This document shows, piece after piece, positions 29,646 to 62,011 of a stretch of DNA of 64,000 bases. Origin of the DNA: Pseudobacter ginsenosidimutans (GTDB lineage Bacteria; Bacteroidota; Bacteroidia; Chitinophagales; Chitinophagaceae). Below the pieces are notes generated by a model. It worked only from the letters and a program-made list of their open reading frames with translations. It was not told where the DNA came from and made no database searches. Positions within the stretch are counted from its first letter, which is position 1. Each line of letters starts with the position of its first letter. Position numbers and translations under genes: made by a program. The stretch lies in the NCBI RefSeq assembly GCF_007970185.1, contig NZ_CP042431.1, positions 3,658,001 to 3,722,000 on the forward strand, written 5' to 3'.

Positions 29646-30233
29646 TTGCCGACCGAACCCTCATACGTGGATAAAGAATTATTCTTCCGTATCGCAGAAG
29701 GAGAGGAACAGGCATTCACGCAATTCTTCATCCAATGGGCCACGCCACTTACACATTACGCCAACAAGATCTTAAGGAATGATCAGGCTGCCAGGGACGT
29801 GATGCAGGAAGTGTTCATCAAAGTCTGGCTGTACCGGGATAAACTTCCGCAGGTAGAGCAACCTGCTGCCTGGCTTAAAAAAGTGGTCACCAATCAATGT
29901 TTGTTGATACTGGATAAGAATGCTGCGCAGGACAAACGTCTGGCCGCACTCAGGCTTGCACAGCCATCACAGCAGGAAGACCCGCTGCCAGCCATCGACT
30001 TCAGAGAAATCCGGCAGACATTGAATAAAGTGATTGAACAACTCCCGCAGCAACGTCGCACCATTTACCGGATGAACCGTGAAGAAGGCAAAACCACCAA
30101 AGAGATCGCTGATGATCTGTCGCTTTCACATGGCTATGTGCGTAATGCGCTCAGCGCCGCGCTGGACACCATCAGGCAGGAGCTGAACCTCCGCCTGGAC
30201 CTTCCAATTTTCCTGCTGTTACTTTTATTTTAA
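29646..30233 (+). CDS. ECF-type sigma factor of module copy 1
   Basis: A 195-residue ECF sigma with region 2 (about 22-85, DQAARDVMQEVFIKVWLYRDKLP) and region 4 (about 125-178, LPQQRRTIYRMNREEGKTTKEIADDLSLSHGYVRNAL). There is no ATG in the right place: translation should begin at TTG 29646 or GTG 29667, which could lower its output. The C terminus is very hydrophobic (DLPIFLLLLLF). It differs strongly from the sigma of copy 2, so the two modules are probably switched on by different signals. A TATAGTTTG sequence about 30 bp upstream is near the -7 consensus. Confidence 0.9.
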   Translation: MPTEPSYVDKELFFRIAEGEEQAFTQFFIQWATPLTHYANKILRNDQAARDVMQEVFIKVWLYRDKLPQVEQPAAWLKKVVTNQCLLILDKNAAQDKRLAALRLAQPSQQEDPLPAIDFREIRQTLNKVIEQLPQQRRTIYRMNREEGKTTKEIADDLSLSHGYVRNALSAALDTIRQELNLRLDLPIFLLLLLF

Positions 30234-30292
30234 TTTTTTTCAGGACGCATAGTGACATTATCCTTTGTTGCCTGATCTTATATAATCAGTAC

Positions 30293-31504
30293 ATGCAAAA
30301 CAGCCATATACATAACCTGGTGAGGGCATTCCTCGAAAATGAACTCAATGAAACGGAGCAGCAGGAATTCTATCAATTGCTGAAAGATCCGGCACAACGG
30401 GAATTGCTATCGGAAATATTCATGGAACTGAACGGAGATCCGGACCTGCAGTTGCCATTTGATGAATCCCTCATGCCGGTATTGAAGGCTGTAATGCAGG
30501 CCGACCGGGCAGCAGCTCCTGTGGTTGAAATGTACTCACCCAAACGTTCCAGGCGTTGGATCTGGATAGCCGCCGCGGTATTACTGTTGCTGACCACCGG
30601 CACCTGGTTGTTTTTTGCAGATAATAAAAATGGAAAAGAGGAACAGCATGCTATTGCTTCTACTGTCAGTATCCCTCCCGGCAGTGACGGCGCTATCCTC
30701 ACCCTTGCCGATGGATCGAAGATGTTGCTGGATAGCCTGGCCGATGGAGTGATCGCCCGCCAACAGGGAGCAGACCTGGTATTGAAGAACCGGGAACTTG
30801 CTTATGAATCGAAGAAAAACCTGAATGCGCCGGTAGTTTACAATACCATCACAACGCCGAGAGGAAGACAGTACCAGTTCCAGTTGTCCGATGGCACAGG
30901 TGTTTGGCTGAATGCAGGAAGCTCCATCACATTTCCTACGGCCTTCAGCAATACGGGAAGGAATGTGAAGATAACAGGAGAAGTATATTTTGAAGTGGCG
31001 AAAAAAATGGCTTCGGGTGGAAACAGGGTACCCTTTACCGTTAGTGTTAATGACCCCGCAGATGCTGCCCGCAATATGGATATCCTGGTGCTGGGCACTC
31101 ATTTCAACGTAAATGCCTATGCGGACGAACCGCAGGTGAACACCACATTGCTGGAAGGCAGCATTCAACTGAAGAAGAATAATGAACAATACCTGCTATT
31201 GCCGGGGCAACAGGCGCGCCTGCAAAACAATGGAACTTTCAAAATGATCGACCGGATCAATGCAGAGGAAGTGCTGGCCTGGAAAGACGGATTCTTTTAT
31301 TTCGACCATACCGATCTGCAGACGGTGATGCGTCAGCTATCACGCTGGTATGATGTGAGCGTGGAATACCGCGGGGAGATCCCCGACCTGAAATTTGTGG
31401 GAGAGATCCCGCGCAGCGCTCAACTGGACCAGGTATTCCAGATACTTGGCAAAACAAAGCTCCGCTTTACCGTGGACAACAAGAAGATCATCGTACATCC
31501 ATAA
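30293..31504 (+). CDS. FecR family anti-sigma factor of module copy 1
   Basis: A 403-residue inner-membrane anti-sigma. A cytoplasmic N-terminal helix region (about 1-78) precedes the membrane helix (about 83-105, WIWIAAAVLLLLTTGTWLFF). The FecR domain (about 145-255) contains TTPRGRQYQFQLSDGTGVWLNAGS and GTHFNVNAYADE. A DUF4974 domain closes the protein (about 330-403, FDHTDLQTVMRQLSRWYDVSVEYRGEIP...). It partners the sigma factor just upstream and receives the signal from the STN domain of the SusC encoded next. Confidence 0.93.
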   Translation: MQNSHIHNLVRAFLENELNETEQQEFYQLLKDPAQRELLSEIFMELNGDPDLQLPFDESLMPVLKAVMQADRAAAPVVEMYSPKRSRRWIWIAAAVLLLLTTGTWLFFADNKNGKEEQHAIASTVSIPPGSDGAILTLADGSKMLLDSLADGVIARQQGADLVLKNRELAYESKKNLNAPVVYNTITTPRGRQYQFQLSDGTGVWLNAGSSITFPTAFSNTGRNVKITGEVYFEVAKKMASGGNRVPFTVSVNDPADAARNMDILVLGTHFNVNAYADEPQVNTTLLEGSIQLKKNNEQYLLLPGQQARLQNNGTFKMIDRINAEEVLAWKDGFFYFDHTDLQTVMRQLSRWYDVSVEYRGEIPDLKFVGEIPRSAQLDQVFQILGKTKLRFTVDNKKIIVHP

Positions 31505-31608
31505 TCATAAACCTTACTCACCAGTTGCGGTACACGGCTGTTTATTATGGCCGGCTGGGATCCTATTGCCAAAACAATTTTTCATTTCAATTTTTAACTG
31601 CAACATTC

Positions 31609-34600
31609 ATGAAACTGACTGCTTTCATTTTGGTTTTAGGCTGCCTGATGGCGGGCTTGCAGGGTAAAGCGCAGATAGTGACTATCTCGGTGAAGGAGGC
31701 AAAGCTCGAATCGGTGCTGAAACTTTTCAAAAAACAAACAGGGTATTCCTTTTTTGTGGATGAACCCACATTGGGAAAAGCCGCAAAGGTGACGCTCGAC
31801 CTGAAATTCATTCCACTGGCGGAAGCGCTTGAAAAATGCTTTGCCGGTCAACCCGATCTCGTTTATTCAATGGTGGGTAAAACTGTGGTGATCTCCGAAA
31901 AAAATCCTGACAAAGGTAATAACGGAGACGGGCATATGAAGAACGGTGGTGATACAACGATAAACGAAATTGTTGGCGTCGTTTTCAATAAAAGGGATGA
32001 GCCGCTGGCCGATGCCAGCGTAATGCTGCTGGGCACCAGGAAGGGGACCACCACCAATGCCAATGGCAGCTTCAAATTACAGGATGCTAAACCAGGGAAT
32101 GTGCTGCGGGTTAGCTTCATTGGATATAAAACTGCTGATATCCCGGTTGCTTCAACTGGCAAAATAATCAGGGTGAAATTGGAAGAAGTCAATAACGAAT
32201 TGGATGAAGTGGTGGCGCAGGGTTACAGTAAAACCACCAACCGTTTGAGTACCTCATCCGTGGCAAAAGTGAGTGGTGAGGAAATTGCCCGCCAGCCCGT
32301 GATGGACCCGCTGCTGACATTACAGGGTAAAGTGCCGGGGATGTTATTGACGCCGGTATCCACCTATAACGGAACACCTGTGAAGATCGATATCCGTGGG
32401 AGAGGACTTCTGTCTGAAGCCAGTGAGAATCCGCTGATCATCATCGATGGCATTCCGATAGGGCTGGGATCCAACCGTGGAGTTGCTTTTGGCGATGGAC
32501 CGGTGCAGGGGATCATGGCTTATCTGAGTCCTGCCGGCAGTCAGAGCCCTTTGTTTGGATTGAATCCGAAAGATATCGAAAGTATTGAAGTCCTGAAAGA
32601 TCTTGGCGCCACTGCTATCTACGGCTCCTCGGGAGCGAATGGTGTGATTTTGATCACTACCAAAAGAGGTAAGTCCGGCGAACCGGCCCTTTCTGTGAAT
32701 ATCAATTTCGGCATTTCCAAAATCCTTCGTTATTATGATCTGCTCAATACAAAGCAGTATGTGGAAATGCGCCGCGAAGCATTGAAGAACGACGGGCTTA
32801 TTCCATCGGCCGTCAACGCTCCGGACCTGGTGCTCTGGGATACTACCAGGTATACTGACTGGCAGCGGCAACTCTGGGGTAAAGCAGGAGTGACGATGGA
32901 TGCAAGCATCGGTTATTCCGGAGGCACGCCGCTTTTGAAATACCGCATTTCAGCCAATTACTCACGGCCCGGAAAAATAACGGCCGTTACCGGTAAGGAT
33001 CAAACTATGGGCGTAAATCTCGCACTCGATCGCCAAAGCGAAAACAGGAAATTCAATTCTTCATTGACTGTAAGCTATATGGCTACCTCTCTCAATATGG
33101 TGACTGCTCCCAATACCATGAATTTGCCTCCCAATGCTCCGCCTATTTTTGATTCCATGGGCGAACTGAATTATAAGGATTGGCTGGGTAGCGGCTTCGA
33201 AAATAACCTTGATGCGTTCGGCGCATTGCTTAAGCCGGTAGAAAGCCGCTCGTCTGCACTCAGTACTTCGCTCAAATTCAATTACCAGTTGGCAAGAGGC
33301 CTGAGTCTTTCTGCAAATTTGACCTATGCCATTTCCAACAATACTTCATGGAGTCTGGTGCCTATCAGGTCGCAGAACCCTGCAAAGAATCCAACAGGTT
33401 CTGTCACTCTCTCCAAGGGAGATACGAGAACATGGAGTGTTGAGCCACAACTTTCTTACAGGAAAGGTCTTTTCGGAAGAAGTAATCTAAGTCTGATGGC
33501 AGGCTTCACGCTTCGTTCAAGTGTAGGCGAAGGCGCCTCTTCGAGAGGATTGGGTTTCACCAATGACGCAACGTTGCGTGCTATTTCACAGGCTCCCGTG
33601 ATGGCGGCTGATTTTACCAGGAGCCAGTACAAAACTGCCGGTGTAATGGCCAGAATGGAATATGAATGGGACAACAAATACGTGGTGAATGTTATCGGAA
33701 GAAGGGATGGGTCCTCCAGGTTCGGACCAGGCAGGCGGTTTGGAAATTTTGGGTCCATTGGTGTGGCCTGGATCGCATCGGAAGAAAAATGGATCAAAAA
33801 TATCCTGAACCCCGTAATAAACTATCTCAAGTTCAATGCCAATACAGGCACAGCAGGTTCAGATGGCGGCGGGGATTACCAGTATCTGTCGCAATGGAGC
33901 AGGGGGCAGCTGGCATTGTATGATAATATATCACCGACGAAAAACCTGCATGCGGTGAATCAGTTCTATCAATGGGCCCTGACGAAAGAATGGGTGGCTG
34001 AAATGCACCTGCGCTTTAAGGGCGCTGCCAGACTTCAGTTTGATATTACGCATTACCAACGCAGGAAGGGAAATCAGTTGACGCAAAATCCAACACCCGT
34101 TTATACCGGCTTTGAAAGCGTATTTGGCAACTGGGATGCCACCGTGCAAAACTCGGGATGGGAATTCAAACTCACCGCCTCGCCTGTGAATGGTAAGGAT
34201 TTTACCTGGATCGCTTCTGTTAATGCCAGCATCAACAAGAATATTCTGCTCGAGTACCCCCAGATTGAAAGAACCCCTGACTTCTCGAAATACCTGGTAG
34301 GACAATCACTGAATACAAGATACCTGTTGAACTACCTGGGCATCGATCCTATGACCGGCAGTTACCAGTTTGAGGATTATAATAAAGATGGACTCATCAA
34401 TTCAAATTCTGTACTGGCTCCATTCGCTTACCCGAGCGATAAACAAAAGACCGTGGATGACGTGCCTGTTGTATTTGGTGGAACCACGCACAGCTTTTCG
34501 TATAAGAACCTCAGTCTGAATATCAGCATGGATTACGCGATCCAAAAAGGAAGGAATGTTTTTGGCAGTGTTTCAAGCCCGGGCAGATTCGGGAACATAC

Positions 34601-34932
34601 CACAGGAGATCTTCAACAACCGCTGGCAAAAACCAGGTGACAATGCCAAATATGCCCGATTCACCACTGGTTCCGCCACCAATTACCAATATGGAGTTTC
34701 CACGCTTTTCTATTCTGATGCCTCGTTCTTCCGGTTCACGAATGTAGCACTGAGCTACATTTTTCCCGGGAAGCTGGCCCGCAGGCTGGGATTGAAAGAC
34801 TGTTCCTTCAACATCCTTACACAGAACCTTTTTACAATCACTAAGTATGAAGGCGTAGATCCCGAGATCAAGAATTTCAGCAGTATGCCTCCTGCAAGGA
34901 CCATCAAATTCGGTTTTGCTGCAACACTTTAA
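31609..34932 (+). CDS. SusC/RagA TonB-linked outer membrane transporter of module copy 1
   Basis: A TonB-dependent transporter of 1107 residues, counted from MKLTAFILVLGCLMAGLQGKAQ, which gives a clean signal peptide (an upstream TTG would add a non-conserved leader). An STN domain (about 22-92) and a CarboxypepD_reg-like domain (about 122-195) precede the plug, which begins DEVVAQGYSKTTNRLSTSSVAKVSGEEIARQ and contains LKDLGATAIYGSSGANGVILITTK. The barrel ends MPPARTIKFGFAATL. The plug opening and end block are shared with the copy 2 SusC but not with the first locus SusC, so the two modules carry their own SusC subtype. The imported substrate is unknown. Confidence 0.94.
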   Translation: MKLTAFILVLGCLMAGLQGKAQIVTISVKEAKLESVLKLFKKQTGYSFFVDEPTLGKAAKVTLDLKFIPLAEALEKCFAGQPDLVYSMVGKTVVISEKNPDKGNNGDGHMKNGGDTTINEIVGVVFNKRDEPLADASVMLLGTRKGTTTNANGSFKLQDAKPGNVLRVSFIGYKTADIPVASTGKIIRVKLEEVNNELDEVVAQGYSKTTNRLSTSSVAKVSGEEIARQPVMDPLLTLQGKVPGMLLTPVSTYNGTPVKIDIRGRGLLSEASENPLIIIDGIPIGLGSNRGVAFGDGPVQGIMAYLSPAGSQSPLFGLNPKDIESIEVLKDLGATAIYGSSGANGVILITTKRGKSGEPALSVNINFGISKILRYYDLLNTKQYVEMRREALKNDGLIPSAVNAPDLVLWDTTRYTDWQRQLWGKAGVTMDASIGYSGGTPLLKYRISANYSRPGKITAVTGKDQTMGVNLALDRQSENRKFNSSLTVSYMATSLNMVTAPNTMNLPPNAPPIFDSMGELNYKDWLGSGFENNLDAFGALLKPVESRSSALSTSLKFNYQLARGLSLSANLTYAISNNTSWSLVPIRSQNPAKNPTGSVTLSKGDTRTWSVEPQLSYRKGLFGRSNLSLMAGFTLRSSVGEGASSRGLGFTNDATLRAISQAPVMAADFTRSQYKTAGVMARMEYEWDNKYVVNVIGRRDGSSRFGPGRRFGNFGSIGVAWIASEEKWIKNILNPVINYLKFNANTGTAGSDGGGDYQYLSQWSRGQLALYDNISPTKNLHAVNQFYQWALTKEWVAEMHLRFKGAARLQFDITHYQRRKGNQLTQNPTPVYTGFESVFGNWDATVQNSGWEFKLTASPVNGKDFTWIASVNASINKNILLEYPQIERTPDFSKYLVGQSLNTRYLLNYLGIDPMTGSYQFEDYNKDGLINSNSVLAPFAYPSDKQKTVDDVPVVFGGTTHSFSYKNLSLNISMDYAIQKGRNVFGSVSSPGRFGNIPQEIFNNRWQKPGDNAKYARFTTGSATNYQYGVSTLFYSDASFFRFTNVALSYIFPGKLARRLGLKDCSFNILTQNLFTITKYEGVDPEIKNFSSMPPARTIKFGFAATL

Positions 34933-34941: not shown

Positions 34942-36414
34942 ATGCTTACTCATATTCGTTTCATATTATTCCTGGCAGTAGTTGGACTATTGACTGCCTG
35001 TGAAAAGCTGGTGGAGATCGATTCTCCCATCGATACCATTACCAGTACAGAAGTATTCAATACGGACCAGCAAGCCAGAACGGCCATGGCTGGCGTGTAT
35101 TCTAAAATGATCAATGGAGATTTGGGGAGTGGTGGTGCTCTTTCTGAATACAGTGGAGGAATGGTTTCAATTTACGGCGGACTTTCCGCAGATGAACTGA
35201 ATACGTCAGAAGCGGTGCCCGATAATGACTATTTCATGTTCAATGCAAACAGGTTGCTGTTTAATAGTGTACCAACAGCCAACATATGGAAGTCTGCTTA
35301 CCTGACCATTTATGGGGCCAATGCAGTGATTGAAGGAATAGCTGCTTCTACTTCAACCAGGTTAACCGAAGCCGTTAGAAAAGAACTGACAGGCGAAGCA
35401 CTTTTTGTAAGGGCCCTTTCTTATTTCTATCTGGTGAATTTGTTTGGAGATGTACCGCTTGCGCTCACCATCGATTTCAACCAAACACGGTACAATGCCA
35501 GAGCTTCAAAGGATGATGTATACAAACAGATCATCGCTGATCTGCTGGCAGCACAGTCTGCTCTTCCTACCCGGAATACCAATGCTGCCGGCGACAGGAT
35601 CTATCCAGATAAATGGGCGGCCACCGCATTGCTGGCGCGCGCTTATCTGTTTACCGGAGATCACCAGAATGCTTTCAAACAGGCAGGAGCCGTTATTACC
35701 AATGCAGGACAATTCCATCTCGAAACCGATCTGCTGAAAACTTTCCAGCGAACAAGCAAAGAAGCCATCTTCCAGTTAAAACAAAATGTGCTTGCCAATA
35801 TCGGTAATGCCACTTCTGAAGGAGTACAGTTGATTCCAGGTCCTGTTGCAGGGAACCCTGATGTATTCAATGTAAGATTCTACTTACCCGACAATTTGCT
35901 GGATGCTTTTGAACCGAATGACAAACGGTTTACAAACTGGGTGGGTGTTTCCACCTCCAACACATCCGGCAGCACCAAATATTATCCCTATAAATACAAA
36001 ACAGGCGGGCAGAACAGAGTGATAGGGGCAGAGCCAACAGAAATGTATATGGTGCTGCGATTGGCGGAGCAATTCCTGATCCGCGCGGAAGCCGCTGCAA
36101 ATGGCGCTGCTGCGCTCACCAATGCCATCGATGATCTGAATGCGATCAGGCACAGGGCAGGAGTGGATTCGCTTCCTTACACCCTTTCACAACCGGAAGT
36201 GCTGAAGGCAATCGAAAAAGAAAGAAGGGTAGAACTCTTCATGGAGTGGGGGCATCGCTGGCTCGATCTTAAAAGAACAGGAAAGGCTTCCGCCGAATTG
36301 CAGCAAAGCCCCATCAAACAGCCATGGGAAGGAGACTACCAGTTGCTCTATCCGATACCTCATAGTGATATGCAGAGCAATCCCAACCTTACACCGAATC
36401 CCGGTTATTTCTAA
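34942..36414 (+). CDS. RagB/SusD family lipoprotein of module copy 1
   Basis: A 490-residue surface lipoprotein (lipobox GLLTACEK) that should cap the SusC barrel. Typical SusD blocks are KELTGEALFVRALSYFYLVNLFGDVPLALTIDFNQTRYN, KWAATALLARAYLFTGDHQNAF, MYMVLRLAEQFLIRAEAAAN and the end block ELFMEWGHRWLDLKRTGKA...LLYPIPHSDMQSNPNLTPNPGYF. The N terminus VEIDSPIDTITSTEVF is nearly the same in the copy 2 protein. It lies 10 bp after SusC. Confidence 0.94.
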   Translation: MLTHIRFILFLAVVGLLTACEKLVEIDSPIDTITSTEVFNTDQQARTAMAGVYSKMINGDLGSGGALSEYSGGMVSIYGGLSADELNTSEAVPDNDYFMFNANRLLFNSVPTANIWKSAYLTIYGANAVIEGIAASTSTRLTEAVRKELTGEALFVRALSYFYLVNLFGDVPLALTIDFNQTRYNARASKDDVYKQIIADLLAAQSALPTRNTNAAGDRIYPDKWAATALLARAYLFTGDHQNAFKQAGAVITNAGQFHLETDLLKTFQRTSKEAIFQLKQNVLANIGNATSEGVQLIPGPVAGNPDVFNVRFYLPDNLLDAFEPNDKRFTNWVGVSTSNTSGSTKYYPYKYKTGGQNRVIGAEPTEMYMVLRLAEQFLIRAEAAANGAAALTNAIDDLNAIRHRAGVDSLPYTLSQPEVLKAIEKERRVELFMEWGHRWLDLKRTGKASAELQQSPIKQPWEGDYQLLYPIPHSDMQSNPNLTPNPGYF

Positions 36415-36425: not shown

Positions 36426-37220
36426 ATGAAAAAATTGCAACAATTCAAAAGGGCTTTCCTGTTTATGATGATCAGTTGGATGCTGCTCACTGGCTGCACC
36501 AAAGACTTCGACAGGCCGGGCGTTGCCTCCCTCAATATATTCAATGGGATTGTTGGCGCCACAACTGTGGCGCCTGATATGAGTGAAGCATCCCCTATCC
36601 AATGGTACAAAACCTCCAATCTGCTTCTCTATGGCGCTGCCGGTAATTTGAATCCCACCACTAACCGGAACAATGTTCAATTCAATTCCTACAGCGGAAT
36701 GCAGCGTTTCAAATTCTTCAATTACCCCGATACGCTGGCGCACAGCAAACCACTGCTGGATGTAGTGCTGGATCTTCCTGTTGGAACTGTCAGCAGTCTC
36801 TACCTGACAGGAACAACCGAAGCGCCGGATACAGTGTTTGCACGCGATCAGCTCGCATACCATTCCTTCGCAGACAGTGTTACCAGCTTAAGGATGGTGA
36901 ACCTGATACCGGAACTGACGGTCAATGTGAACCAGCAGGGAAGTCCTGATGAAAACGAATGGTCATCGCTTGGATACAAATCGATATCGGCATTCAGGGA
37001 CTTCTCACTTACCGGAACGGGCGCCAAATATATTTTCGAGATAAAAGATGCTGCCACCGGCAACCTGGTGACCACGGCTACCGTGGATGCTGCGGACAGA
37101 AGACAAAGCACATCGTTCATCAATTATTATCGTTTCAAAAATCTCACTATGATACTTTATGGCAAGGCTGGTAATACCGGCGCTACAGCACCGAAAGTTG
37201 CCATCATGAGTAATAATTAA
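36426..37220 (+). CDS. DUF4397-like surface lipoprotein of module copy 1
   Basis: A 264-residue lipoprotein (lipobox WMLLTGCTK). The mature part is beta-rich and has two similar halves: ASLNIFNGIVGA...VQFNSYSGMQRFKFFNYPD in the first and TSLRMVNLIPELTVNVNQ...FRDFSLTGTGAKYIFEIKDAATG in the second. This layout resembles DUF4397 proteins, which appear on the surface of many bacteria without known function; the family name is tentative. It follows SusD by 12 bp and is present in both copies. It may extend substrate capture or bridge SusCD to the inner membrane complex. Confidence 0.65.
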   Translation: MKKLQQFKRAFLFMMISWMLLTGCTKDFDRPGVASLNIFNGIVGATTVAPDMSEASPIQWYKTSNLLLYGAAGNLNPTTNRNNVQFNSYSGMQRFKFFNYPDTLAHSKPLLDVVLDLPVGTVSSLYLTGTTEAPDTVFARDQLAYHSFADSVTSLRMVNLIPELTVNVNQQGSPDENEWSSLGYKSISAFRDFSLTGTGAKYIFEIKDAATGNLVTTATVDAADRRQSTSFINYYRFKNLTMILYGKAGNTGATAPKVAIMSNN

Positions 37221-45798: not shown

Positions 45799-46389
45799 AT
45801 GCAGGACAGATCCCTTCAAAAACATTGGTTCAAACAAATAGCCGAAGGCGATGAAACTGCTTTCAGGAGCCTGTTTGAAACCTACTGGGACCACCTGTAT
45901 ACTGTTGCCATGCTGCTTACAAAATCTGAAACGCTCTCGGAAGATATCGTACAGGAAACCTTTCTTAAAGTTTGGAATAAACGAAGGGAATTGCCTGAGG
46001 TAGATAAGCCGGAAGGATATTTGTTTATCATTGCACGTAATCAGATATATAATTTGATGAAGCAGCAGCAGCGTGAGATCAAATATCGCAAATATGTGCT
46101 CGATTGGTTCGAAGCTGCCAATGAAACTCCCGAGAATGACCTCCTGTTCAAAGAATCCTCACAATTGCTTCACCGGGCTATAGGACAATTAAGCAGCCAC
46201 CAGCAAACGGTTTACAAGCTCACACGCGAACAGGGACTGAGCTATGAAGAAACTGCCAGAACCCTGAACATTTCTACGAGCACTGTTCGTAATCATATGG
46301 TGAATTCCCTCAAAATTATCCGGGAGTACCTTAAAACCCACACATCTCCGCTGGTATTCACTATTGCCATGCTGGAAACATTGAAATAA
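45799..46389 (+). CDS. ECF-type sigma factor of module copy 2
   Basis: A 196-residue ECF sigma with an ATG start. Region 2 spans about 20-88 (LSEDIVQETFLKVWNKRRELP) and region 4 about 128-180 (LSSHQQTVYKLTREQGLSYEETARTLNISTSTVRNHMVNSLKIIREYLK). It is only distantly similar to the copy 1 sigma even though the downstream ABC and MutS-like genes are closely related, so it has diverged or been exchanged. It should be paired with the FecR encoded next and read a separate promoter set. Confidence 0.92.
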   Translation: MQDRSLQKHWFKQIAEGDETAFRSLFETYWDHLYTVAMLLTKSETLSEDIVQETFLKVWNKRRELPEVDKPEGYLFIIARNQIYNLMKQQQREIKYRKYVLDWFEAANETPENDLLFKESSQLLHRAIGQLSSHQQTVYKLTREQGLSYEETARTLNISTSTVRNHMVNSLKIIREYLKTHTSPLVFTIAMLETLK

Positions 46390-47751: not shown

Positions 47752-47854
47752 CTATTTTTTATAAACCTTTACTGAACTGGCTTCCTGCATGGAAGGCAAC
47801 AGGCATCCTATTGATCGAAAATTATTAACCACCGAAATCAACTGTTGCATCATC

Positions 47855-54492: not shown

Positions 54493-56865
54493 ATGAGGAT
54501 GGTAATTCAAATCGCAAAGGCAGAGTTGCGAAATCTCTTCTATTCCCCTGTAGCATGGTTCCTGGCCATCGTTTTTTTGGTGATGAGCGGCTATGCTTTT
54601 ACTGAAGGGCTGTACCAGTTGACCAAAATGCAGGAGACGATGAAATATTCAAGCCCCGATTTCAAGGACTTCGGTCCCCTTACCCTCACACTGGTATTCC
54701 TGCATACACCGGGTAGCATTTTTTCCGTGATGCTGAAAAACAGTTATTTTTTTGTTCCACTGCTCACGATGGGGCTTATCGGGCGCGAAATACAGGCAGG
54801 AACGATCAAGCTACTGTATTCTTCACCGGTGAAATTATGGAAGGTAATAATAGGGAAATTCCTGGCAGTGATGATGTACAATGTAATGCTGTTGATGATA
54901 CTGTCTGTTTACCTGATCATTTTAGGATGCAGTATCAGGTCGGCCGATTATGGATTGTTTATTGCCGGAATGATTGCATTTTACCTGCTTATCTGCACGT
55001 ATGCCGCCATCGGCCTGTTCATGAGCAGTCTCACTACCTACCAGGTAGTGGCTGCAATTGGCACTTTCCTGGTAATATTTGTACTCACAAAAACAAATGG
55101 CCTCTGGCAGCAATATGATCTTGTAAGAGACCTTACTTATTTTCTCTATCTGCCCGGACGTATAGAAAGGCTATTGAAAGGATTGATCGTGAGCAAAGAC
55201 ATCATCTATTATGTAATGATGGTGTTCATGTTCCTTGGATTTACGTATATACGACTGAGAAAACAGCGTGAGTCGAAACCCTGGTACGTAACAACCATGC
55301 GCATAATGGTGGTAGTTATAATAACATTGTCTGCCGGTTATCTTTTTTCATTACCCAAAACAAGCCTGTACCTGGATACTACGGCAACCCGGGCCAATAC
55401 CATTCACCCCAAAACACAGGCCCTTCTTGAAGAAATGAAAGGAGAGCCATTGGAGGTGACATTGTATACCAACCTTCTGGGCGGCGAAGGCATATATGGG
55501 TTTCCTGCGGCAAGGAATATTTATCGTGGCGCGCTCTGGGAACAATATCTCCGCTTCAATACCAATATACATTTCAAATATGTTTACTACTACTATTATG
55601 AACCCGAAATGGATGGTGGCCACCTGGCAAGGATTTTTCCGGATAAAAGCAATGAAGAAATGGCAAGGGAATTTGCTAAAGGAATGCAGGTGAACTTCGA
55701 TTTATTCTCCCCCATTTCAGCATTGAAAGAAATGCCAGACCTCGAACCAGAGAAATACCGCCTCATCATGCAACTCAAATATAAAGGAAGGACAGAGTTT
55801 TTGCGCACCTACCAGTCTGCCGGAAAATATCCCGACGTTGCACCCGCCGTTTATCCCCACGAACAAAATATGGCTGCTGCATTGAAACGCTTGTTACATC
55901 CGGAAGGCATTCCCAAAGTGCTGTATACTTCCGGCAATCTCGAAAGAAAGGTATACGGAAAAGGAGAGAGGGACTATATGCGGGCTACTACTGCAAATTT
56001 CGAGAAGAATGGACCTGTAAATCTGGGTTTTGATGTAGATACGATCTCACTGGAAAAACAGGATATCCCTGCCGGCATCACTGCTTTGGTGGTGGCCGAT
56101 CCCAAAGTAGAGCTCAGCGGGCTTTCGCAACAGAAACTAAAGAAGTACATAGACGAAGGAGGAAATATCATGTTCATGGGCGAGCCGGGAAAACAAAATG
56201 TACTCAATCCCTTGTTGAAGTATATGGGCGTTGAGATGCTCGGCGGCACTGTGGTGGAGCCTACTTACCATGAAAAGCCGGATATGGTGAAACCCTATTA
56301 TACGGCCGCAAGTGCAGAGCTGGCTGATGAATTGTTATTCAAGTTGGTAAAGGCAAAAATGAAACGGGTTTATGATAAGGATACCCTGAAGATGCTGATG
56401 CCAGGCGTTACAGGTATTTCGTTTACTGATAGCAGTGGGTTTGTGAAGAAACCTTTATTGCTGACCGTGGGATCCAGCTCATGGCTGAAGAAAGGCAAGC
56501 TGGTGGTAGATTCTGCCGATGTAGTGTATAATGCAGCAGAAGGTGATGTAAGAGGAGCGTTCTCTACAAGCCTGCAATTGTACAGACAGATTGGCAATAA
56601 ACAACAGCGGGCCGTCATCTATGGAGATGCTGATTTTCTGGTCAATGAGAGATTGAAAAATGGAGAGGCGATACACCGTGCTGCTCTCTACTGGTTGAGC
56701 GAAAATGAATACCCGGTGTATGTACCTCGTGAAGACGCCAAAGACAACCTGATCAACCTTTCATCCGGTACTGCAAAAAAACTCAAACTGATCTTCGTAT
56801 GGATCTTGCCTGCCCTGGTGCTGGTTGCAGGAACTGTGTTGCTCGTCAGGCGAAAAAGAAAATAG
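54493..56865 (+). CDS. ABC-2 permease fused to GldG-like domain, type A, module copy 2
   Basis: A 790-residue protein with the permease half (about 18-255, SYFFVPLLTMGLIGREIQAGTIKLLYSSPVKLWKVIIGKFLAVM), a further helix (about 270-288), the GldG-like extracytoplasmic domain (about 292-760, with GGNIMFMGEPGKQNVLNPLLKYMG and VIYGDADFLVN) and a C-terminal helix ending RRKRK. It is most similar to the copy 1 type A protein, so the A/B split predates the duplication. It starts at the conserved MRMVIQIAKAELRNLFYSPVAWF. Confidence 0.88.
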   Translation: MRMVIQIAKAELRNLFYSPVAWFLAIVFLVMSGYAFTEGLYQLTKMQETMKYSSPDFKDFGPLTLTLVFLHTPGSIFSVMLKNSYFFVPLLTMGLIGREIQAGTIKLLYSSPVKLWKVIIGKFLAVMMYNVMLLMILSVYLIILGCSIRSADYGLFIAGMIAFYLLICTYAAIGLFMSSLTTYQVVAAIGTFLVIFVLTKTNGLWQQYDLVRDLTYFLYLPGRIERLLKGLIVSKDIIYYVMMVFMFLGFTYIRLRKQRESKPWYVTTMRIMVVVIITLSAGYLFSLPKTSLYLDTTATRANTIHPKTQALLEEMKGEPLEVTLYTNLLGGEGIYGFPAARNIYRGALWEQYLRFNTNIHFKYVYYYYYEPEMDGGHLARIFPDKSNEEMAREFAKGMQVNFDLFSPISALKEMPDLEPEKYRLIMQLKYKGRTEFLRTYQSAGKYPDVAPAVYPHEQNMAAALKRLLHPEGIPKVLYTSGNLERKVYGKGERDYMRATTANFEKNGPVNLGFDVDTISLEKQDIPAGITALVVADPKVELSGLSQQKLKKYIDEGGNIMFMGEPGKQNVLNPLLKYMGVEMLGGTVVEPTYHEKPDMVKPYYTAASAELADELLFKLVKAKMKRVYDKDTLKMLMPGVTGISFTDSSGFVKKPLLLTVGSSSWLKKGKLVVDSADVVYNAAEGDVRGAFSTSLQLYRQIGNKQQRAVIYGDADFLVNERLKNGEAIHRAALYWLSENEYPVYVPREDAKDNLINLSSGTAKKLKLIFVWILPALVLVAGTVLLVRRKRK

Positions 56866-56898
56866 AACCCAATAAGTTAATTGCATAAATATATTCCA

Positions 56899-59315
56899 AT
56901 GAGGATGGTTATTCAAGTTGCAAAAGCAGAACTTAGAAACCTTTTTTACTCACCTGTTGCATGGTTCCTGCTGATTGCTTTTATTGTTCAGTGCGCCTGG
57001 TTTTATACTTCGCCATTGTTTGATCTGGCTAACTGGCAGGATGTATATATCAGGAACAAGCCGGATTTTAAGGAATGGGCGGGCAGCAGCTTTACCAGAC
57101 GCCTGTTCAAAGACAGTGGTTTTTTCTCCAATGTACTGAACAACCTGTACCTGTTCATCCCCTTACTCACGATGGGGCTGATCGGCAGGGAAGTGCAGAA
57201 CGGAACTATCAAACTGCTGTATTCTTCTCCCATTACCATCCGGAAGATCGTGATAGGGAAATTCATGGCTATCATGGTCTTCAACCTGGCACTGGTACTG
57301 GTTCTGGGGGCTTCTTCCTTACGGCATCCATGAACATGATCAATATCGATTACGGGATGCTTTTTTCTGCGGCGCTGGGTTTCTTTTTACTGACCTGTGC
57401 CTATGCGGCCATCGGAGCTTACCTGAGCAGCCTCACTACCTGGCAGATCATTTCGGCATTAGGCAGTTTTCTGGTGATCGGTTTGCTGACAGTGATCGGA
57501 GGCCTCTGGCAACAATATGATTTTGTGAGGGACCTTACTTATTTCCTGTTCCTGTCTGGCCGTATAGAAAAAATGCTGGCCGGATTGATCACCAGCAAGG
57601 ATCTGATCTATTTCCTCGCCGTGATCAGCATGTTCCTGCTGTTCACCATGCTGAAACTGCGGGGAGCCCGCGAACTGAAGCCATGGTATGTGAAAGCTGC
57701 AAGATATGCAGGCGTGGTAGCGATCACGCTGTTGACCGGTTATATCAGTTCAAGACCTGCGCTGACGCTGTATTGGGACACCACCCAACAAAAAGTGAAT
57801 ACCCTTCACGCCAATACACAACAGCTGATCCATGAAATGAAAGATGAACCCCTGGAAGTGACCCTCTATACAAATTTCCTGGGTAATGAAAGAGAGGCAG
57901 GCATGCCCAAAAACCGAAACGCCTATCTCTCCAGGTGCTGGGATAAATATCTCCGCTTCAAAACCAATATCAAATTCAATTACGAGTATTATTACAACTA
58001 CGATAGTACTGTGATGAAAACGAAACTGTACACTTATGTGAACAGGGGCAAAACCCTGGAGCAAATAGTGAATAAGATGTCGCAGGACCAGGAAATAGAT
58101 ATCAGCAAATTTCAGAAGCCTGCAGAGATGGCAAAGAAGATCGATCTGAAGCCGGAACATTACCGGCTCGTACTTCAGTTGAAGTATAAAGGACGGACTG
58201 AATTTGTGCGCACTTTTGATGATAAAGAGATCTGGCCAAATGAAGAAGGGATGGCCGCTGTATTCAAAAGATTGCTGCATCCGGAAGAGATACCGCTTAT
58301 TCAATTTACCACCGGCCATTATGAAAGGAGCTATGATAAGGGCGGTGAAAGAGGCTATTCCATCGTTGGTTCCAAAAGATCGCGCGGCGCATTGGTGAAC
58401 AGGGGCTTTGATCTGGATACGGTCTCCCTGGACAATAGAGATATTTCTCCCAGGACCTCCATCCTGGTGCTGGCAGATCCCAAATCAGAACTGAGTGAAA
58501 CAGCCCGTGAAAAAATAAGGAATTATATAGCGAAGGGAGGCTGTATGTTTATGCTCGGAGAGCCTGGTAAACAACAAATGATGAACCCTGTTATCAGTCA
58601 GCTTGGGGTTCAACTGGCTGAGGGCACCATCGTGAGGGCAAACAGGCACGAGATCCCTACCCTGGTTTTTTCCAATGCACAAGCTGCATTCGGCGGTTTA
58701 GTGAATCATCCCGAAAAACCTGTAACTGCTTCCATAAGCCTGGATGCTCAGTTGGTCATGGATGCTGCTGCCGCCATTGTACCTTCTGATACCAGTAATT
58801 TTACAGTAACACCCTTGTTTAAAGTATCCCGGGGTGCATGGTTGAAGCAGGGAATAATAGTAACTGATTCAGCCAATGTGGTGTTTGATGAAAAAGGGGG
58901 AGACCGTAGTAAGGTCCCTTCATTCATGCTTCCGGCACATCCAGCAGAAGATGTATATGACAAAAACGATCCTCATGAACATGAAGACGGTCATCAATCT
59001 GATAGCGGATTTTCCACCATTGTTGCCTTTCAAAGGGATATCAACAATAAAGATCAGCGCATTCTCCTTGCCGGTGATGCTGATTTTTTGAGCAATAAAA
59101 GGTCGATGCAGGCTTCACGGTGGGGTCCTCATTTCTTCAGTTGGCTCGATCACGGAGATTATCCTCTACGGGTAGGAAGACCTGCGCCTCCGGATAACCT
59201 GCTGACCATTACTGGTAAAACGGCCAGGATGATCAACATCATCTACGTTTACGTGTTACCGGGAGCCGTTTTGCTTTTTGCCACCATCTTACTGATCAGG
59301 AGAAAAAGAAAATAA
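56899..59315 (+). pseudogene. ABC-2 permease-GldG type B of module copy 2, split by a 1-bp frameshift
   Basis: The first frame (from MRMVIQVAKAELRNLFYSPVAWF at 56899) ends at 57333, and the second frame continues the protein from about 57306 to 59315. The break is at the G run 57306-57310; with one more G the sequence reads LVLGGFFLTASMNMINIDYGM, matching the copy 1 type B protein (VMITGIFFVSAMLN). Restored, the protein has about 805 residues with the usual two-part layout. The rest of the gene is open and well conserved, so the break is recent or a sequencing error. It also has a His/Asp-rich insertion (about 58930-59010) absent from copy 1. Confidence 0.8.
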
Positions 59316-59317
59316 CG

Positions 59318-60646
59318 ATGTACTTACAAACCGACGACCAAACGATAGAGGACCTGCGCATTTTTGGAAAACGCGATAGTGCAGGTGTATTCGATCTCTA
59401 CAACCGGGTACACACGCGTGGAGGGGAATCCTTGCTGAAAAAGATGTTCAGGGCGCCATTGTCTGACCAGGAGCTGATCAATGCCCGTAGCAGCATCATC
59501 CAACATTTTGCGGCTCACAAAACGGCTTTCCCTTTCAGCGCTTCCCTGTTCGATATGGCGGAGAAATACATGATCAGTGCAACCGAAACCCAAAAGCAGG
59601 GAAGTGATAAAGCGGTGCTCAGTGAAAAAGAGATTGCCAATGGCGTTACTGCCGTAATCGAAATGATACAATTGTGCCGCGATTTCATTGAAACCGAAAA
59701 CGTAAAAAATGTTCCTGCCTACAGACCGGAAAGGGAAAGTATAGCCATGATCCTTTCCGATGCTGTATTTGAACCTGTACGCAAAGAGAACCTTCGGACA
59801 AAGATCTCTTATTCGGCAGTGGCCGCTTATGATGTATTGTTCCGCGTACGTGAACAACAAAAAGTGAACAGGTTGATGGCACATATTTATTATCTGGATG
59901 TATTATTGTCCATTGCGGCTATTGCCAACGAAAGGAATTTCATTTTTCCCAAAGCGCTGGAAAAAGGTTCGGCCACTTTGTTGCTGGAAGGCGTATACCA
60001 TCCCGAGCTCAAATCACCGGTAGCAAATGATCTTATGCTGAACAATAACCGTAATTTCATTTTTCTCACCGGAGCCAATATGGCCGGTAAATCCACTTTC
60101 CTGCGTTCTGTGAGTGTGGCGATGTTCCTGGCCCATATCGGATTCCCTGTGGCTGCGAGAAAAATGGAATTTTCTGTAATGGATGGCATCTTCACTACCA
60201 TCAACCTGCCTGACAACCTGGGCATCGGGGCCAGCCACTTCTATGCGGAAGTGCTGCGGGTGAAGCAGGTGGCTGCCGAGCTCAGCAAGAACAGATCGCT
60301 GTTCGTGATCTTCGACGAATTGTTCCGGGGCACCAATGTGAAAGATGCCCATGAAGCATCCGTGGCGGTATCGCTTTCTTTTGCGAAGAAAAAGAATAGT
60401 ATGTTCATTATTTCTTCCCATATCATCGAGGCCGGTGAAGAACTGAAACGGTTGAACAATATAGGCTTCCTCTTCCTGCCCACGAGGATGAAAGGACCTA
60501 TGCCCGAGTATACCTACCGGCTGGAGCATGGCATTACAGATGACCGTCATGGTATGATCATCATCCGCAACGAAGGTATATTGGAGATCCTGGAAAAGGG
60601 GAAGAAACATTTACCCGGGGAGCACTCGCTCGCCTCTGGCGAGTGA
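59318..60646 (+). CDS. short MutS-family ATPase, type A, module copy 2
   Basis: A 442-residue protein homologous to the copy 1 type A: core helices, then Walker A TGANMAGKS, signature SHFYAEV, Walker B FVIFDELFRGT and SSH, at the same positions. The main difference is the C terminus: after ILEKGKK it ends in HLPGEHSLASGE, encoded by a GC-rich stretch with a hairpin (60623-60645) that has no counterpart in copy 1. The gene starts 3 bp after the permease B stop. It is separated from type B by 45 bp rather than overlapping. Confidence 0.87.
   Translation: MYLQTDDQTIEDLRIFGKRDSAGVFDLYNRVHTRGGESLLKKMFRAPLSDQELINARSSIIQHFAAHKTAFPFSASLFDMAEKYMISATETQKQGSDKAVLSEKEIANGVTAVIEMIQLCRDFIETENVKNVPAYRPERESIAMILSDAVFEPVRKENLRTKISYSAVAAYDVLFRVREQQKVNRLMAHIYYLDVLLSIAAIANERNFIFPKALEKGSATLLLEGVYHPELKSPVANDLMLNNNRNFIFLTGANMAGKSTFLRSVSVAMFLAHIGFPVAARKMEFSVMDGIFTTINLPDNLGIGASHFYAEVLRVKQVAAELSKNRSLFVIFDELFRGTNVKDAHEASVAVSLSFAKKKNSMFIISSHIIEAGEELKRLNNIGFLFLPTRMKGPMPEYTYRLEHGITDDRHGMIIIRNEGILEILEKGKKHLPGEHSLASGE
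60623..60645. repeat. GC-rich inverted repeat, possible inserted REP-like element
   Basis: Outer arms CACTCGC/GCGAGTG and inner arms CTCGCC/GGCGAG form a hairpin at the very end of MutS-like A. The surrounding 60604-60690 stretch is GC-rich and missing at the corresponding place in copy 1, so it may be a small inserted repeat. Confidence 0.45.
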
Positions 60647-60691
60647 CTGGCCGCCCGCCGCTGATTTGTTGCCTGCCAATTATTACAAACT

Positions 60692-62011
60692 TTGAATATG
60701 AATTTCAAAATAGACAAGCAAACGATCGAAGAACTTAACCTCACCGGAAAATTCCGAAGCGGTTCTGTATATGCGATCTTCAATAAAGTGAAGACCAATG
60801 GAGGGGAAAGGTTGCTGGACCATATGTTCAGTCATCCGCTGGAAGAAGTAGATGCTATCAATCAACGCAGCAGTATTTTCCGGTATTTTGGCGAAGCCGC
60901 ATTCTCTTTTCCTTTCGATGTGCAGCAGTTGAACCAGATGCGGGAGCATATCGACAGCATGTCGTCTAAAAATCAGATGCTGGTATTCGCCCGTACCTGC
61001 ATTCACAAGATACTGGCAGGCCTCACCAGGGATGAACGCTACCGGAAACTGGTGCAGGGATTGCAGGCCACTATCCTGGTTTTGCATAAATGCCACCAGT
61101 TTATTCAGGCTATGCGTTCTGATAGCCCGTTTACTGCCAGGGTGGATACCATCCGGGAAATATTATCAGATAAGAGAATAGAAAAACTAAGGCAGGTGGA
61201 TATCTACAAATCCCTTTCCATTCAAACCCTGTCCTCTTACGAACATCTCCTGAAAGGGGAACTGCATGGCCAGATGGAAGATGTCCTGAACTTTATCTAT
61301 GAAGTTGACCTGTTCATTGCCGTTAGTAAAGTGGCAAAGGACCGGAAATTCAACTATGCCGAGGCGCTGCCGCCTGCAAAGAATCTGATGTCTGCCATCG
61401 ACCTTCGTCATCCTGCCATCGATAATGCCATCGGAAATGATTTACGCATGGATGGATCCAGCAATGTACTTTTCCTGACCGGCGCCAATATGGCCGGCAA
61501 ATCCACCCTGATGAAAAGCATCGGCATCGCTTGTTACCTGGCACATATGGGATTCCCGGTGGCTGCAAAGGAGTACCGGTTCTCCGTGCGGGAAGGATTG
61601 TATTCCAGCATCAATGTGGCCGATAATATCGGGCTTGGCTACAGCCATTTCTACGCCGAAGTGGTGCGTGTGAAACAAGCCGCAGAAGCGGCTGCCAGTG
61701 GGAAGCGCCTGCTGTTGATGTTCGACGAACTGTTCAAGGGCACCAATGTGAAAGATGCCTATGATGGCACACTGGCCATTACGGAATCATTTGCAGATTA
61801 TACTGATTGCTTGTTTGTTGTGAGTACCCATATCATTGAAGTGGGAGAGGCGTTGAGAAGAAAAGACAATATCCGTTTTGTATTCATGCCTACTATCATG
61901 GAGGGATCGGTGCCCAGATATACGTATCAACTCAGGGAAGGCATCACCGAAGACCGGCAGGGCATGCTGATCATCAGGAATGAAGGTATACTGGAAATGA
62001 TGGATGCCTGA
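60692..62011 (+). CDS. short MutS-family ATPase, type B, module copy 2
   Basis: A 439-residue protein closely similar to the copy 1 type B (start MNMNFKIDKQTIEELNLTGKFRSGSVYAIF; a second ATG lies two codons on). Walker A TGANMAGKS, signature SHFYAEV, Walker B LLMFDELFKGT and STH are intact. Its middle third shares the 383-bp near-identical tract with copy 1. As in copy 1 it should pair with MutS-like A. A terminator follows. Confidence 0.87.
   Translation: MNMNFKIDKQTIEELNLTGKFRSGSVYAIFNKVKTNGGERLLDHMFSHPLEEVDAINQRSSIFRYFGEAAFSFPFDVQQLNQMREHIDSMSSKNQMLVFARTCIHKILAGLTRDERYRKLVQGLQATILVLHKCHQFIQAMRSDSPFTARVDTIREILSDKRIEKLRQVDIYKSLSIQTLSSYEHLLKGELHGQMEDVLNFIYEVDLFIAVSKVAKDRKFNYAEALPPAKNLMSAIDLRHPAIDNAIGNDLRMDGSSNVLFLTGANMAGKSTLMKSIGIACYLAHMGFPVAAKEYRFSVREGLYSSINVADNIGLGYSHFYAEVVRVKQAAEAAASGKRLLLMFDELFKGTNVKDAYDGTLAITESFADYTDCLFVVSTHIIEVGEALRRKDNIRFVFMPTIMEGSVPRYTYQLREGITEDRQGMLIIRNEGILEMMDA
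61178..61560. repeat. near-identical 383-bp tract shared with 44767-45149
   Basis: The partner of the tract described in copy 1, with one differing base. It codes for the end of the core domain through Walker A of MutS-like B. Confidence 0.9.

Follow-up and report, generated by a model that had tools for sequence, protein, structure and literature searches.

What kind of system brings together an outer-membrane importer of the SusC/SusD (SusCD) kind, a sigma/anti-sigma circuit, an ABC complex resembling the gliding machinery and a pair of ATPases of the MutS family? The question is raised by a stretch of 64,000 nucleotides of Pseudobacter ginsenosidimutans (contig NZ_CP042431.1, positions 3,658,001 to 3,722,000; hereafter the window), in which a preliminary description, made from the sequence alone, had recognized such genes in two copies. 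SusCD importers constitute a dominant route of nutrient uptake in Bacteroidota, although little is known of what happens to the imported cargo once it reaches the inner membrane. The analysis below describes what looks like one conserved, undescribed transport system, in which a repeatedly amplified class of SusCD brings along its own inner-membrane complex together with two ATPases of MutS descent.

Layout of the tandem modules

The window contains two ten-gene modules in direct tandem (29646-45591 and 45799-62011), both with the order ECF sigma factor, FecR, SusC, SusD, lipoprotein, ABC ATPase, permease A, permease B, MutA and MutB. A third tandem module opens at 62103 and continues beyond the window end; its remainder is visible in locus L027. 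The features are listed below, with Pfam domains called at E 1e-3.

Module 1
29646..30233, +, ECF sigma factor (Pfam Sigma70_r2, r4)
30293..31504, +, FecR anti-sigma factor (Pfam FecR, FecR_C)
31525..34932, +, SusC, TonB-dependent, with an N-terminal STN-like region (TIGR04056, 622 bits)
34942..36414, +, SusD lipoprotein (PF07980 and PF14322, above cut-off)
36426..37220, +, lipoprotein, mostly beta, without family assignment (no Pfam match; Cys24; predicted model)
37241..38167, +, GldA-like ABC ATPase (PF00005; TIGR03522 264 bits, under cut-off)
38222..40591, +, permease A, GldF-like membrane part and GldG-like part fused (PF12679 and PF09822)
40626..42983, +, permease B, fused GldF/GldG-like (PF12679 and PF09822)
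42986..44302, +, MutA, MutS domains III and V only (PF05192, PF00488)
44287..45591, +, MutB, MutS domains III and V only, start overlapping MutA (PF05192, PF00488)
Module 2
45799..46389, +, ECF sigma factor (Pfam)
46546..47751, +, FecR (Pfam)
47789..51187, +, SusC (TIGR04056, 615.5 bits)
51197..52675, +, SusD (PF07980 and PF14322, above cut-off)
52686..53489, +, lipoprotein, homologue of 36426-37220 (56% identity)
53508..54434, +, GldA-like ABC ATPase (86% identity to the module 1 copy)
54493..56865, +, permease A (65% identity to the module 1 copy)
56881..59315, +, permease B, frameshifted near 57306 (two overlapping frames; PF09822 in the second)
59318..60646, +, MutA (89% identity to the module 1 copy)
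60692..62011, +, MutB (92% identity to the module 1 copy; dS 0.40)
Third module
62103..62717, +, sigma factor opening the module

The Pfam and NCBIfam identities and their order agree with the ten-gene succession reported for both copies in the preliminary description. The tight spacing noted there for the ABC-MutS half was likewise found: the gap between permB and mutA is 2 bp in both copies; mutA and mutB share 16 nt in copy 1 and are separated by 45 bp in copy 2. The copies had also been called complete, which did not hold: permease B of module 2 is split over two frames (56881-57333 and 57075-59315) with the switch at a G5 run near 57306. Pfam gave PF09822 alone for this copy, the membrane part being in the other frame, and the comparison of permB between the copies, which had read through the frameshift in a single frame, was discarded. 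The proposed terminator after each module was not borne out. In a simple scan, neither 45592-45798 nor 62012-62102 contained a terminator-like site, and the regions scanned gave 2 and 3 sites, about as many as shuffled sequence (1.7 and 2.6). Between the tandem copies dS is 0.40 for mutB versus 1.40 for gldA, and the 3' end of the module seems to have been exchanged between them.

Family relations of the module proteins

Both SusC proteins are members of the SusC/RagA family (TIGR04056; 622 and 615.5 bits versus a cut-off of 368.25) and both SusD proteins exceed the cut-offs of PF07980 and PF14322, with the susD gene starting 9 bp downstream of susC. The ECF sigma and FecR families are present upstream in both modules, and the STN domain on SusC stays marginally below its cut-off of 28.4 (28.2 and 28.3 bits in modules 1 and 2). 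The composition thus has the SusC, SusD, FecR and sigma families in common with the SusCD/RagAB operons; it differs in the linked GldA-like ABC and MutS ATPases, for which our searches of the open-access literature brought up no description in such operons, and in the lack of a carbohydrate-active enzyme. At E 1e-3 the window's 20 module genes include no such enzyme, one gene per module being without a Pfam family, and in this respect the modules deviate from polysaccharide utilisation loci, where these enzymes are linked. The gene without a family (no Pfam match at E 1e-3 in either module) is that of the lipoprotein. Its Cys24 is invariant across 35 sequences, which is in line with the earlier designation as a lipoprotein, but the DUF4397 likeness that came with it found no counterpart in Pfam. 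The predicted model (pLDDT 87) is mostly beta, with the extracellular domain of PepT2 as best fold match. In some modules DUF4843 and PKD proteins occupy a variable slot; these lipoproteins gave no match to solved structures.

The ATPase has a PF00005 domain and obtained 264 bits with the GldA equivalog TIGR03522, below the cut-off of 402.6, a value that is exceeded by one other protein of the genome (437 bits). In permeases A and B an ABC2-type membrane domain is joined to a PF09822 GldG-type part. The scores with GldF (TIGR03518; 68.4 bits for A and 83.4 bits for B, cut-off 288.5) and GldG (TIGR03521; 24.8 bits for B, cut-off 389.85) are low, and permease B matched no solved structure. The modules share a GldA-like ATPase, a GldF-like membrane part and a GldG-type part with the GldA-GldF-GldG gliding complex, but all proteins fall under the Gld equivalog cut-offs and a single protein combines the GldF-like with the GldG-like part. 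In PADLOC the GldA-like ATPase scored 92.6 bits with mad3 and 41.9 bits with mad8, and MutA scored 17.0 bits with mad8; the lipoprotein, the permeases and MutB gave no match. The score with mad3 may reflect mere shared ATPase sequence.

MutA and MutB (434-442 aa) contain only PF05192 and PF00488 at E 1e-3. The mismatch-binding (I), connector (II) and clamp (IV) domains of MutS were not detected at this threshold in either module. The MutS-type ATPase domain V is equipped with both Walker motifs: in module 1, Walker A reads GANMAGKS in both proteins and Walker B reads DELFRGT in MutA and DELFKGT in MutB. Over a larger survey, from which fused and split copies were excluded and in which a few genes were counted twice, the Walker A pattern was present in 187 of 187 rows and the Walker B pattern in 186 of 187. 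With MutS1 and Msh2-Msh6 the pair has domain III, the domain V ATPase, the paired subunits and the Walker motifs in common; it differs in the missing domains and in its score with the MutS equivalog, which was the best NCBIfam profile (136 bits for MutA, 123 bits for the other) at a cut-off of 480. Considering that domains III and V alone are retained, with intact Walker motifs, a DNA clamp is unlikely. A non-DNA precedent for a MutS-type ATPase exists in MutS2, which reportedly splits ribosomes (PMC10897456). The name of model NF052383 suggests a second one in KamC, the MutS-like reactivase ATPase of lysine 5,6-aminomutase. KamC is likewise a MutS-type ATPase of a non-repair family, but the modules have no aminomutase gene, their ATPases come as a pair of subunits encoded beside membrane proteins, and the scores (109 and 100 bits) stay below the cut-off of 300. 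Natural MutA-MutB fusions occur in 2 of the 56 loci of the genome, in 1 of 31 loci of relatives and in 18 of 80 loci of the named set, and their N halves group with MutA in the tree at 100/100 support. The predicted model of a fused MutAB was poor (pLDDT 70.8, pTM 0.50).

Linkage, amplification and spread

The genome carries a total of 56 MutA/MutB loci, the spans of which sum to around 10.6% of its length. In 55 of these, gldA-like, permease, susC and susD genes are found upstream of MutA; the 56th (L063/L164) has the same genes in permuted order. The same holds for 27 of the 31 loci of relatives, the remainder being permuted or divergent (L134, L143, L144) or having a partial permease and no SusCD (L125). 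Among the 80 named loci, several of which end at contig ends, plus-strand matches were obtained for the permease in 71, gldA in 68 and both susC and susD in 70. Where permease and MutS genes adjoin, the gap is 100 bp or less in 55 of 57 cases in the genome itself, 26 of 28 in relatives and 66 of 71 in the named set, counts in which loci overlap and a few adjacencies occur twice. Within 244 genomes of the family, 22 had MutA and permease, 3 only permease, none only MutA and 219 neither (Fisher p ~2e-28), and permease genes were present in all ten genomes carrying ten chosen MutAB loci. The preliminary description had named a chance proximity of MutS and ABC genes as the outcome that would undo its proposal; the mostly short gaps and the permease in 22 of 22 MutA genomes speak against such an outcome, and the proposal of one functional unit withstands this test.

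The converse dependence is looser. Three own SusCD-ABC loci lack the MutS pair, ABC genes without MutS nearby were found in L161-L163 and L179-L181, and permeases outnumber MutS pairs in genomes of the Bacteroidales; in the Butyricimonas genome G435, 25 permease matches stand against 3 MutS pairs plus a single additional MutS-like match. Given G435 and the six loci mentioned, MutAB is not required one-to-one by the ABC genes. Of the proposal that all ten genes make up one functional unit, the dependence of MutS on ABC holds, but the ABC part also occurs by itself. Fused MutAB without an ABC gene was seen in L227, L236 and L244, within stretches of 7.2, 13.7 and 7.5 kb, respectively, and in L230 and L256 ABC-MutAB is present without SusCD in the stretch covered.

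Mantel correlations over 33 own loci with intact genes were 0.93 for mutA-mutB, 0.87 for mutA-gldA and 0.57 for gldA-susC (each p 0.001), and the last value was 0.83 within the 25 loci of the lipoprotein type. Over all the own loci compared, the sigma and FecR genes showed no co-inheritance with the rest (r 0.01 to 0.14). A reading of the regulators as reshuffled is only partly supported, since FecR reached 0.42 to 0.66 within the lipoprotein-type modules.

Chitinophaga, Pedobacter, Mucilaginibacter and Sphingobacterium share this gene order, and Butyricimonas, which is known from the human gut, has a related one; presumably the orders Chitinophagales, Sphingobacteriales and Bacteroidales are thereby covered. 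The underlying search gave 579 matching stretches, in which MutA, MutB and others are mixed. Within the genus the amplification varies, with 114 matches here versus 6 to 50 in five congeners. The linkage to ABC genes marks a subset of SusC, since the 56 SusC genes that scored highest in the genome, taken from 309 first-look candidates and not representing the genome total, all lack a GldA-like gene within 10 kb. Together with the SusCD locus at 19899-29488 of the window, which has no GldA-like gene either, this indicates that SusCD in general is independent of the ABC machine. In agreement with the preliminary description, which could match the combination to no known pathway, our searches of the open-access literature brought up no described system of SusCD, GldA-like ABC and MutS.

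Ligand and possible mode of action

Peptidases recur beside the modules of relatives. An M16 profile match was obtained in 31 of the 80 named loci. Closer inspection of six M16 matches, including two in named loci, showed both M16 domains in each. S41, met-zincin (zinc) and S9 peptidases and thioredoxins were seen among the neighbours in relatives, as judged from 25 of the 65 families of 85 accessory proteins. In the window itself, modules 1 and 2 are without a peptidase gene. Many relatives thus resemble the Fus-type, protease-associated TonB import (PMC6793856, PMC6071955) in having a TonB-dependent receptor beside an M16 peptidase, but the window modules lack the M16 gene, and the accessible part of PMC6793856 does not mention SusD, MutS, Gld or an ABC transporter. 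As the peptidases and thioredoxins of relatives probably bind or process the ligand, the latter is most likely a peptide or peptide-like. The DUF4843 and PKD proteins of the variable slot point in this direction too. BT2261-64 and RagAB are oligopeptide-binding structures of the SusCD kind (PMC7782687). Of the solved structures, 8aa4 ('SusC homolog') was nearest in sequence to the window SusC (221 bits), followed by RagA (150 bits) and BT_2264 (80 bits). A glycan ligand is conceivable too, because this nearest structure belongs to what we take to be a glycan system.

We tentatively favour, at something short of even confidence, that the modules serve TonB-dependent uptake, probably of the peptide type, and that each supplies its own inner-membrane ABC/GldFG complex and a heterodimeric ATPase derived from MutS. 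Each module would be a single operon for self-induced uptake with its own inner-membrane machine. SusC and SusD, by their family membership, would capture the ligand and import it across the outer membrane, and its transport would switch the operon on via the SusC N-terminus, FecR and the sigma factor, a mode of induction known for such operons. The lipoprotein, and in many relatives also peptidases and thioredoxins, would bind or process the ligand, and the GldA-like ATPase and the fused permeases, given their domains, could assemble in the inner membrane into a complex by which the ligand is taken up, extracted or mechanically worked on in the periplasm. MutA and MutB would constitute a cytosolic heterodimer, an ATP-gated clamp devoid of the MutS DNA-binding domains, which in view of its pairing and ABC dependence may act on the cytosolic side of the ABC complex or on delivered cargo. 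That this heterodimer is a second motor, clamping the cytosolic face or the cargo and completing a peptide-like TonB-dependent import, is possible but rather doubtful.

Instead of handling a ligand, ABC-MutAB may assemble or maintain its own SusCD complex or envelope lipoproteins. Complexes of the GldA/F/G type are known in connection with the envelope rather than with the uptake of nutrients, and each SusCD of this kind has its own co-inherited ABC copy, but the many SusC genes that do without a GldA-like gene and the recurrent peptidases make this unlikely. ABC-2 permeases are usually exporters, and it has also to be considered that SusCD admits a peptide or natural product which the ABC complex extracts, exports or shields the envelope from, under regulation by MutAB. 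The sigma/FecR control genes, the dozens of diverged copies, which would suit many ligands, and the resemblance to mad3, perhaps shared ATPase sequence only, are compatible with such sensing and expulsion. We consider it improbable, given that PADLOC matched neither the permeases nor the lipoprotein nor MutB, and MutA only at 17.0 bits, and that an importer in the same operon would be uneconomical for a toxin.

The remaining two explanations concern the MutS pair itself. Its amplification in one genus, its absence from the three own SusCD-ABC loci and the apparent exchange of the 3' end would befit a passenger or addiction-like element, spreading along with the operon but playing no role in transport; the finding that distant lineages preserve the gene order and the ATPase motifs, with distances that match, and that MutA is never without permease in the 244 genomes, renders this very improbable. 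The import of nucleic acid with the MutS pair as DNA clamp, one of the suggestions in the preliminary description, agrees with the membership of a family of DNA clamps and with the MutS profile as top score, but is scarcely credible. Domains I and IV of MutS carry the DNA contacts, and these, like domain II, were undetected; the MutS equivalog cut-off is far off, none of the window module genes matched a nuclease or DNA-uptake family in Pfam, and relatives have many peptidases and thioredoxins among their accessory genes. The suggested clamp accordingly survives only as one on a non-DNA target.

If the reading of the heterodimer as a second motor is true, the SusCD-ABC-MutAB chain would be a new class of trans-envelope importer and the MutS fold would have a role in transport, for which we know of no earlier case. 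The modules make the roles of GldA/GldF/GldG-type complexes and of MutS ATPases without DNA-binding domains testable.

More distant MutS-like homologues (L152-L160, in other genomes sampled from the phylum) were at first read as pairs because a neighbour had a similar length, but by the profiles each locus has a single MutS-type gene; in L154 the neighbour of similar length is an amidohydrolase. Other neighbours of these lone MutS genes include an M1 peptidase (L154, L157), an M20 peptidase (L158), Wzi-like proteins (L152, L154, L157) and an Mg-chelatase-like protein (L159). All of L152-L160 are located on one side of a tree branch (97/85), with a very long branch for L153.

Module organization in the window and its genome

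The window contains the following loci:

19899-29488: sigma-FecR-SusC-SusD locus directly upstream of the modules, with two proteins without a Pfam family and a calcineurin-like phosphoesterase, and without ABC or MutS genes
29646-45591: module 1 (sigma, FecR, SusC, SusD, lipoprotein, gldA, permA, permB, mutA, mutB)
45799-62011: module 2, the same ten genes, head to tail with module 1
56881-59315: permB of module 2, interrupted near 57306, where a G5 run carries a frameshift
62103: start of a third module (L027), which opens with a sigma gene and reaches its mutB beyond the window end

The preliminary description had proposed two complete ten-gene modules in tandem, each followed by a terminator. 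The tandem arrangement holds, but permB of module 2 is frameshifted, through either mutation or faulty assembly, and no terminator-like site was found between the modules. The gene spacing is operon-like: the intergenic gaps within both modules are below 60 bp, the sole exception being the sigma-FecR gap of module 2 (156 bp); permB and mutA are 2 bp apart in both, and mutA and mutB of module 1 overlap by 16 nt. Five modules lie within ~87 kb, marked by MutA at positions 3700986, 3717318, 3731118, 3750763 and 3771622 of the genome contig; in the fourth (L023) the susC and lipoprotein genes are split. In this genome several module genes (mutA, susC, lipoprotein and perm) fall into two frames each, among other loci in L075, L076, L023 and L024; this suggests decay or assembly indel errors.

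Searched with MutA, the window's genome (7,797,595 bases in a single contig) gave 122 matches. We assign these to 56 MutA loci and the MutB genes paired with them, some of them fragmented, to two solitary loci, L077 and L078, and to two weak matches lying in long frames. The preliminary description had called for a check on the proximity of ABC and MutS genes and the attachment of SusCD, and both were found: gldA, perm, susC and susD lie upstream of MutA, before any other MutS gene, in 55 of the 56 loci, with FecR and sigma also present in 54. The adjacency is tight, with a permease-to-MutS gap of at most 100 bp in 55/57 cases in this genome, 26/28 in relatives and 66/71 in the named loci (the best 80 of at least 579 confirmed stretches from a scan of named genomes, each covering at most 10 kb per side). 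The remaining locus (L063, also L164) is permuted to mutA-mutB-sigma-FecR-SusC-SusD-DUF4843-PKD-gldA-perm. Together the 55 loci span 827,899 bases, or 10.6% of the genome. In a control comparison, the 56 top-scoring SusC genes among 309 first-look candidates in this genome all lacked a GldA-like gene within 10 kb, so the modules hold a subset of the SusC genes. In eight modules (L026, L028, L029, L031, L037, L038, L045, L048) an extra sigma-like gene directly precedes gldA, and their ABC-MutS half may therefore have its own control.

Linkage and co-inheritance

Among 244 genomes of the family, 22 contained both MutA and the permease, three the permease only, none MutA only and 219 neither (Fisher p ~2e-28, uncorrected for kinship and with E-value limits that differ between the searches). 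Distance matrices from the 33 loci of the window's genome with every gene intact correlated at 0.93 for mutA and mutB, at 0.74 to 0.87 for MutS and ABC, and at 0.51 to 0.61 (p 0.001) for SusCD against ABC/MutS; for sigma/FecR against the rest of the module the correlation was about zero. SusC and GldA correlated at 0.83 within lipoprotein-type modules (25 loci) versus 0.49 among the remainder (35 loci). Given the agreement of these matrices, inheritance of SusC, SusD, ABC and MutS is largely that of one unit. SusCD-ABC-MutAB is shown to be one conserved, largely co-inherited unit, in which the MutS-type pair comes only with the ABC genes in the genomes examined.

The ABC genes depend less on their partner than the MutS pair does. 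Three loci of the window's genome (L161-L163) carry SusCD-gldA-perm, and two other genomes (G021, G170) sigma-FecR-SusC-SusD-gldA-perm-M16, all without MutS within the 20 kb seen. In ten genomes from which chosen loci came, permease to MutS matches ranged from 25:7 (Butyricimonas) and 12:2 down to 1:2, each MutS pair counting as two matches, so that one MutAB pair may serve several ABC copies. Butyricimonas G435 (L257; 5.3 Mb) has 25 permease matches and only three MutA/MutB pairs; by these counts, amplification of the ABC genes in this genome has not extended to MutS.

Between modules 1 and 2, identity is 89% for MutA, 92% for MutB, 60% for SusC and 28% for sigma. The synonymous distances of mutB (0.40) and mutA (0.98) are lower than those of gldA (1.40) and permA (2.07); part of the MutS likeness therefore seems to stem from recent exchange between the tandem modules, beyond constraint alone. 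For mutB (44287-45591 versus 60692-62011) the distance is far below that of the rest of the module, a pattern as after gene conversion.

Component proteins, likely cargo and proposed mechanism

The GldA-like ATPase of the window scores 264 bits, below the GldA cut-off of 402.6; the same profile gave 60 matches in the genome, of which one, elsewhere, exceeds the cut-off (437 bits) and the others score 245 to 288. The permeases consist of a GldF-like membrane part fused to a GldG-like part. MutA and MutB comprise MutS domains III and V only, and the Walker A and B patterns occur in 187 and 186 of 187 MutS-like rows (fused and split copies excluded). Natural MutA-MutB fusions were found in 2/56 loci of this genome, 1/31 relative loci and 18/80 named loci (the best 80 of at least 579), and five more come from loci selected as fusion examples (L168-L171, L173). 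In a tree the N halves of eight fusions group with MutA (100/100) and none of the C halves do. One fusion was modelled with AlphaFold at low confidence (pLDDT 70.8, pTM 0.50); the model best matches MutS-beta and MutS, so it supports a MutS-like fold and nothing beyond.

The contents of the slot between SusD and gldA vary. We found the window-type lipoprotein in 29 entries, which reduce to 27 distinct loci (one gene is fragmented in two, another counted twice), and a second lipoprotein type in 12, which we presume to be of the zinc-metallohydrolase type; neither Pfam nor NCBIfam matched the two members that were scanned. Other occupants are DUF4843 and PKD proteins and M16. The window lipoprotein is well modelled (pLDDT 87) and its best solved-structure match is the extracellular domain of PepT2 (TM 0.48 and 0.61, 12% identity), a predicted fold resemblance and no proof of peptide binding. 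Genes downstream of the modules include M16, S41, met-zincin, S9 and thioredoxin/TlpA-like genes among seemingly unrelated ones. The peptidase and thioredoxin/TlpA-like genes, together with the slot proteins, point to peptides or proteins as the probable cargo. Against this, the window modules have no peptidase and the window SusC is, among solved structures, closest in sequence to 8aa4, which we take to be a glycan system.

In the mechanism that we propose, a peptide-like cargo would be taken up by the module, the ABC complex would act at the inner membrane, and MutAB would be a putative clamp on something other than DNA. MutS2 is reported to act on ribosomes (PMC10897456), which shows that the targets of MutS-type ATPases can be other than mismatches. 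The front half of the module is a SusCD operon; for the ABC-MutAB back half, the open-access literature searched yielded no described counterpart.

Spread across genomes

MutA matches occurred in all six genomes of the genus (114, 50, 33, 22, 8 and 6 matches at 1e-60), in 22/244 genomes and 10/101 genera of the family (1e-80), and in 10/198 genomes of a phylum sample (1e-40). Within the latter, full-query matches above 40% identity were confined to the window's genome and G099; the other eight had matches of 28-40% identity, with one MutS-type gene per locus seen. Among the best 80 of at least 579 named stretches, the taxa included Niastella, Pseudoflavitalea, Chitinophaga, Pedobacter, Mucilaginibacter, Sphingobacterium, Butyricimonas, Odoribacteraceae, Rikenellaceae and others; plus-strand profile matches within at most 10 kb per side were found for perm in 71, gldA in 68, susC and susD in 70 each, FecR in 60, sigma in 30 and M16 in 31. 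Of the 12 loci that miss gldA, four (L189, L201, L214, L220) border a nearby contig end, five (L206, L208, L231, L251, L260) are in permuted order, and the remaining three (L227, L236, L244) have MutAB without ABC genes within the stretch seen. Two other loci (L230, L256) have, within the stretch seen, ABC-MutAB without SusCD.

In Butyricimonas (L219, L257) gldA-perm-mutA-mutB comes first, followed by sigma-FecR-SusC-SusD. Seven Pedobacter loci (L203, L204, L226, L234, L237, L238, L239) show the order gldA-perm-MutAB fusion-M16-perm, in L203 with a fatty acid hydroxylase gene downstream; this family makes up 6/85 accessory proteins. A single, distant MutS-type gene, possibly a further non-repair MutS, was seen in L152-L160 from many other genomes and in L077 of the window's genome; in L154 it sits between amidohydrolase and M1 peptidase genes.
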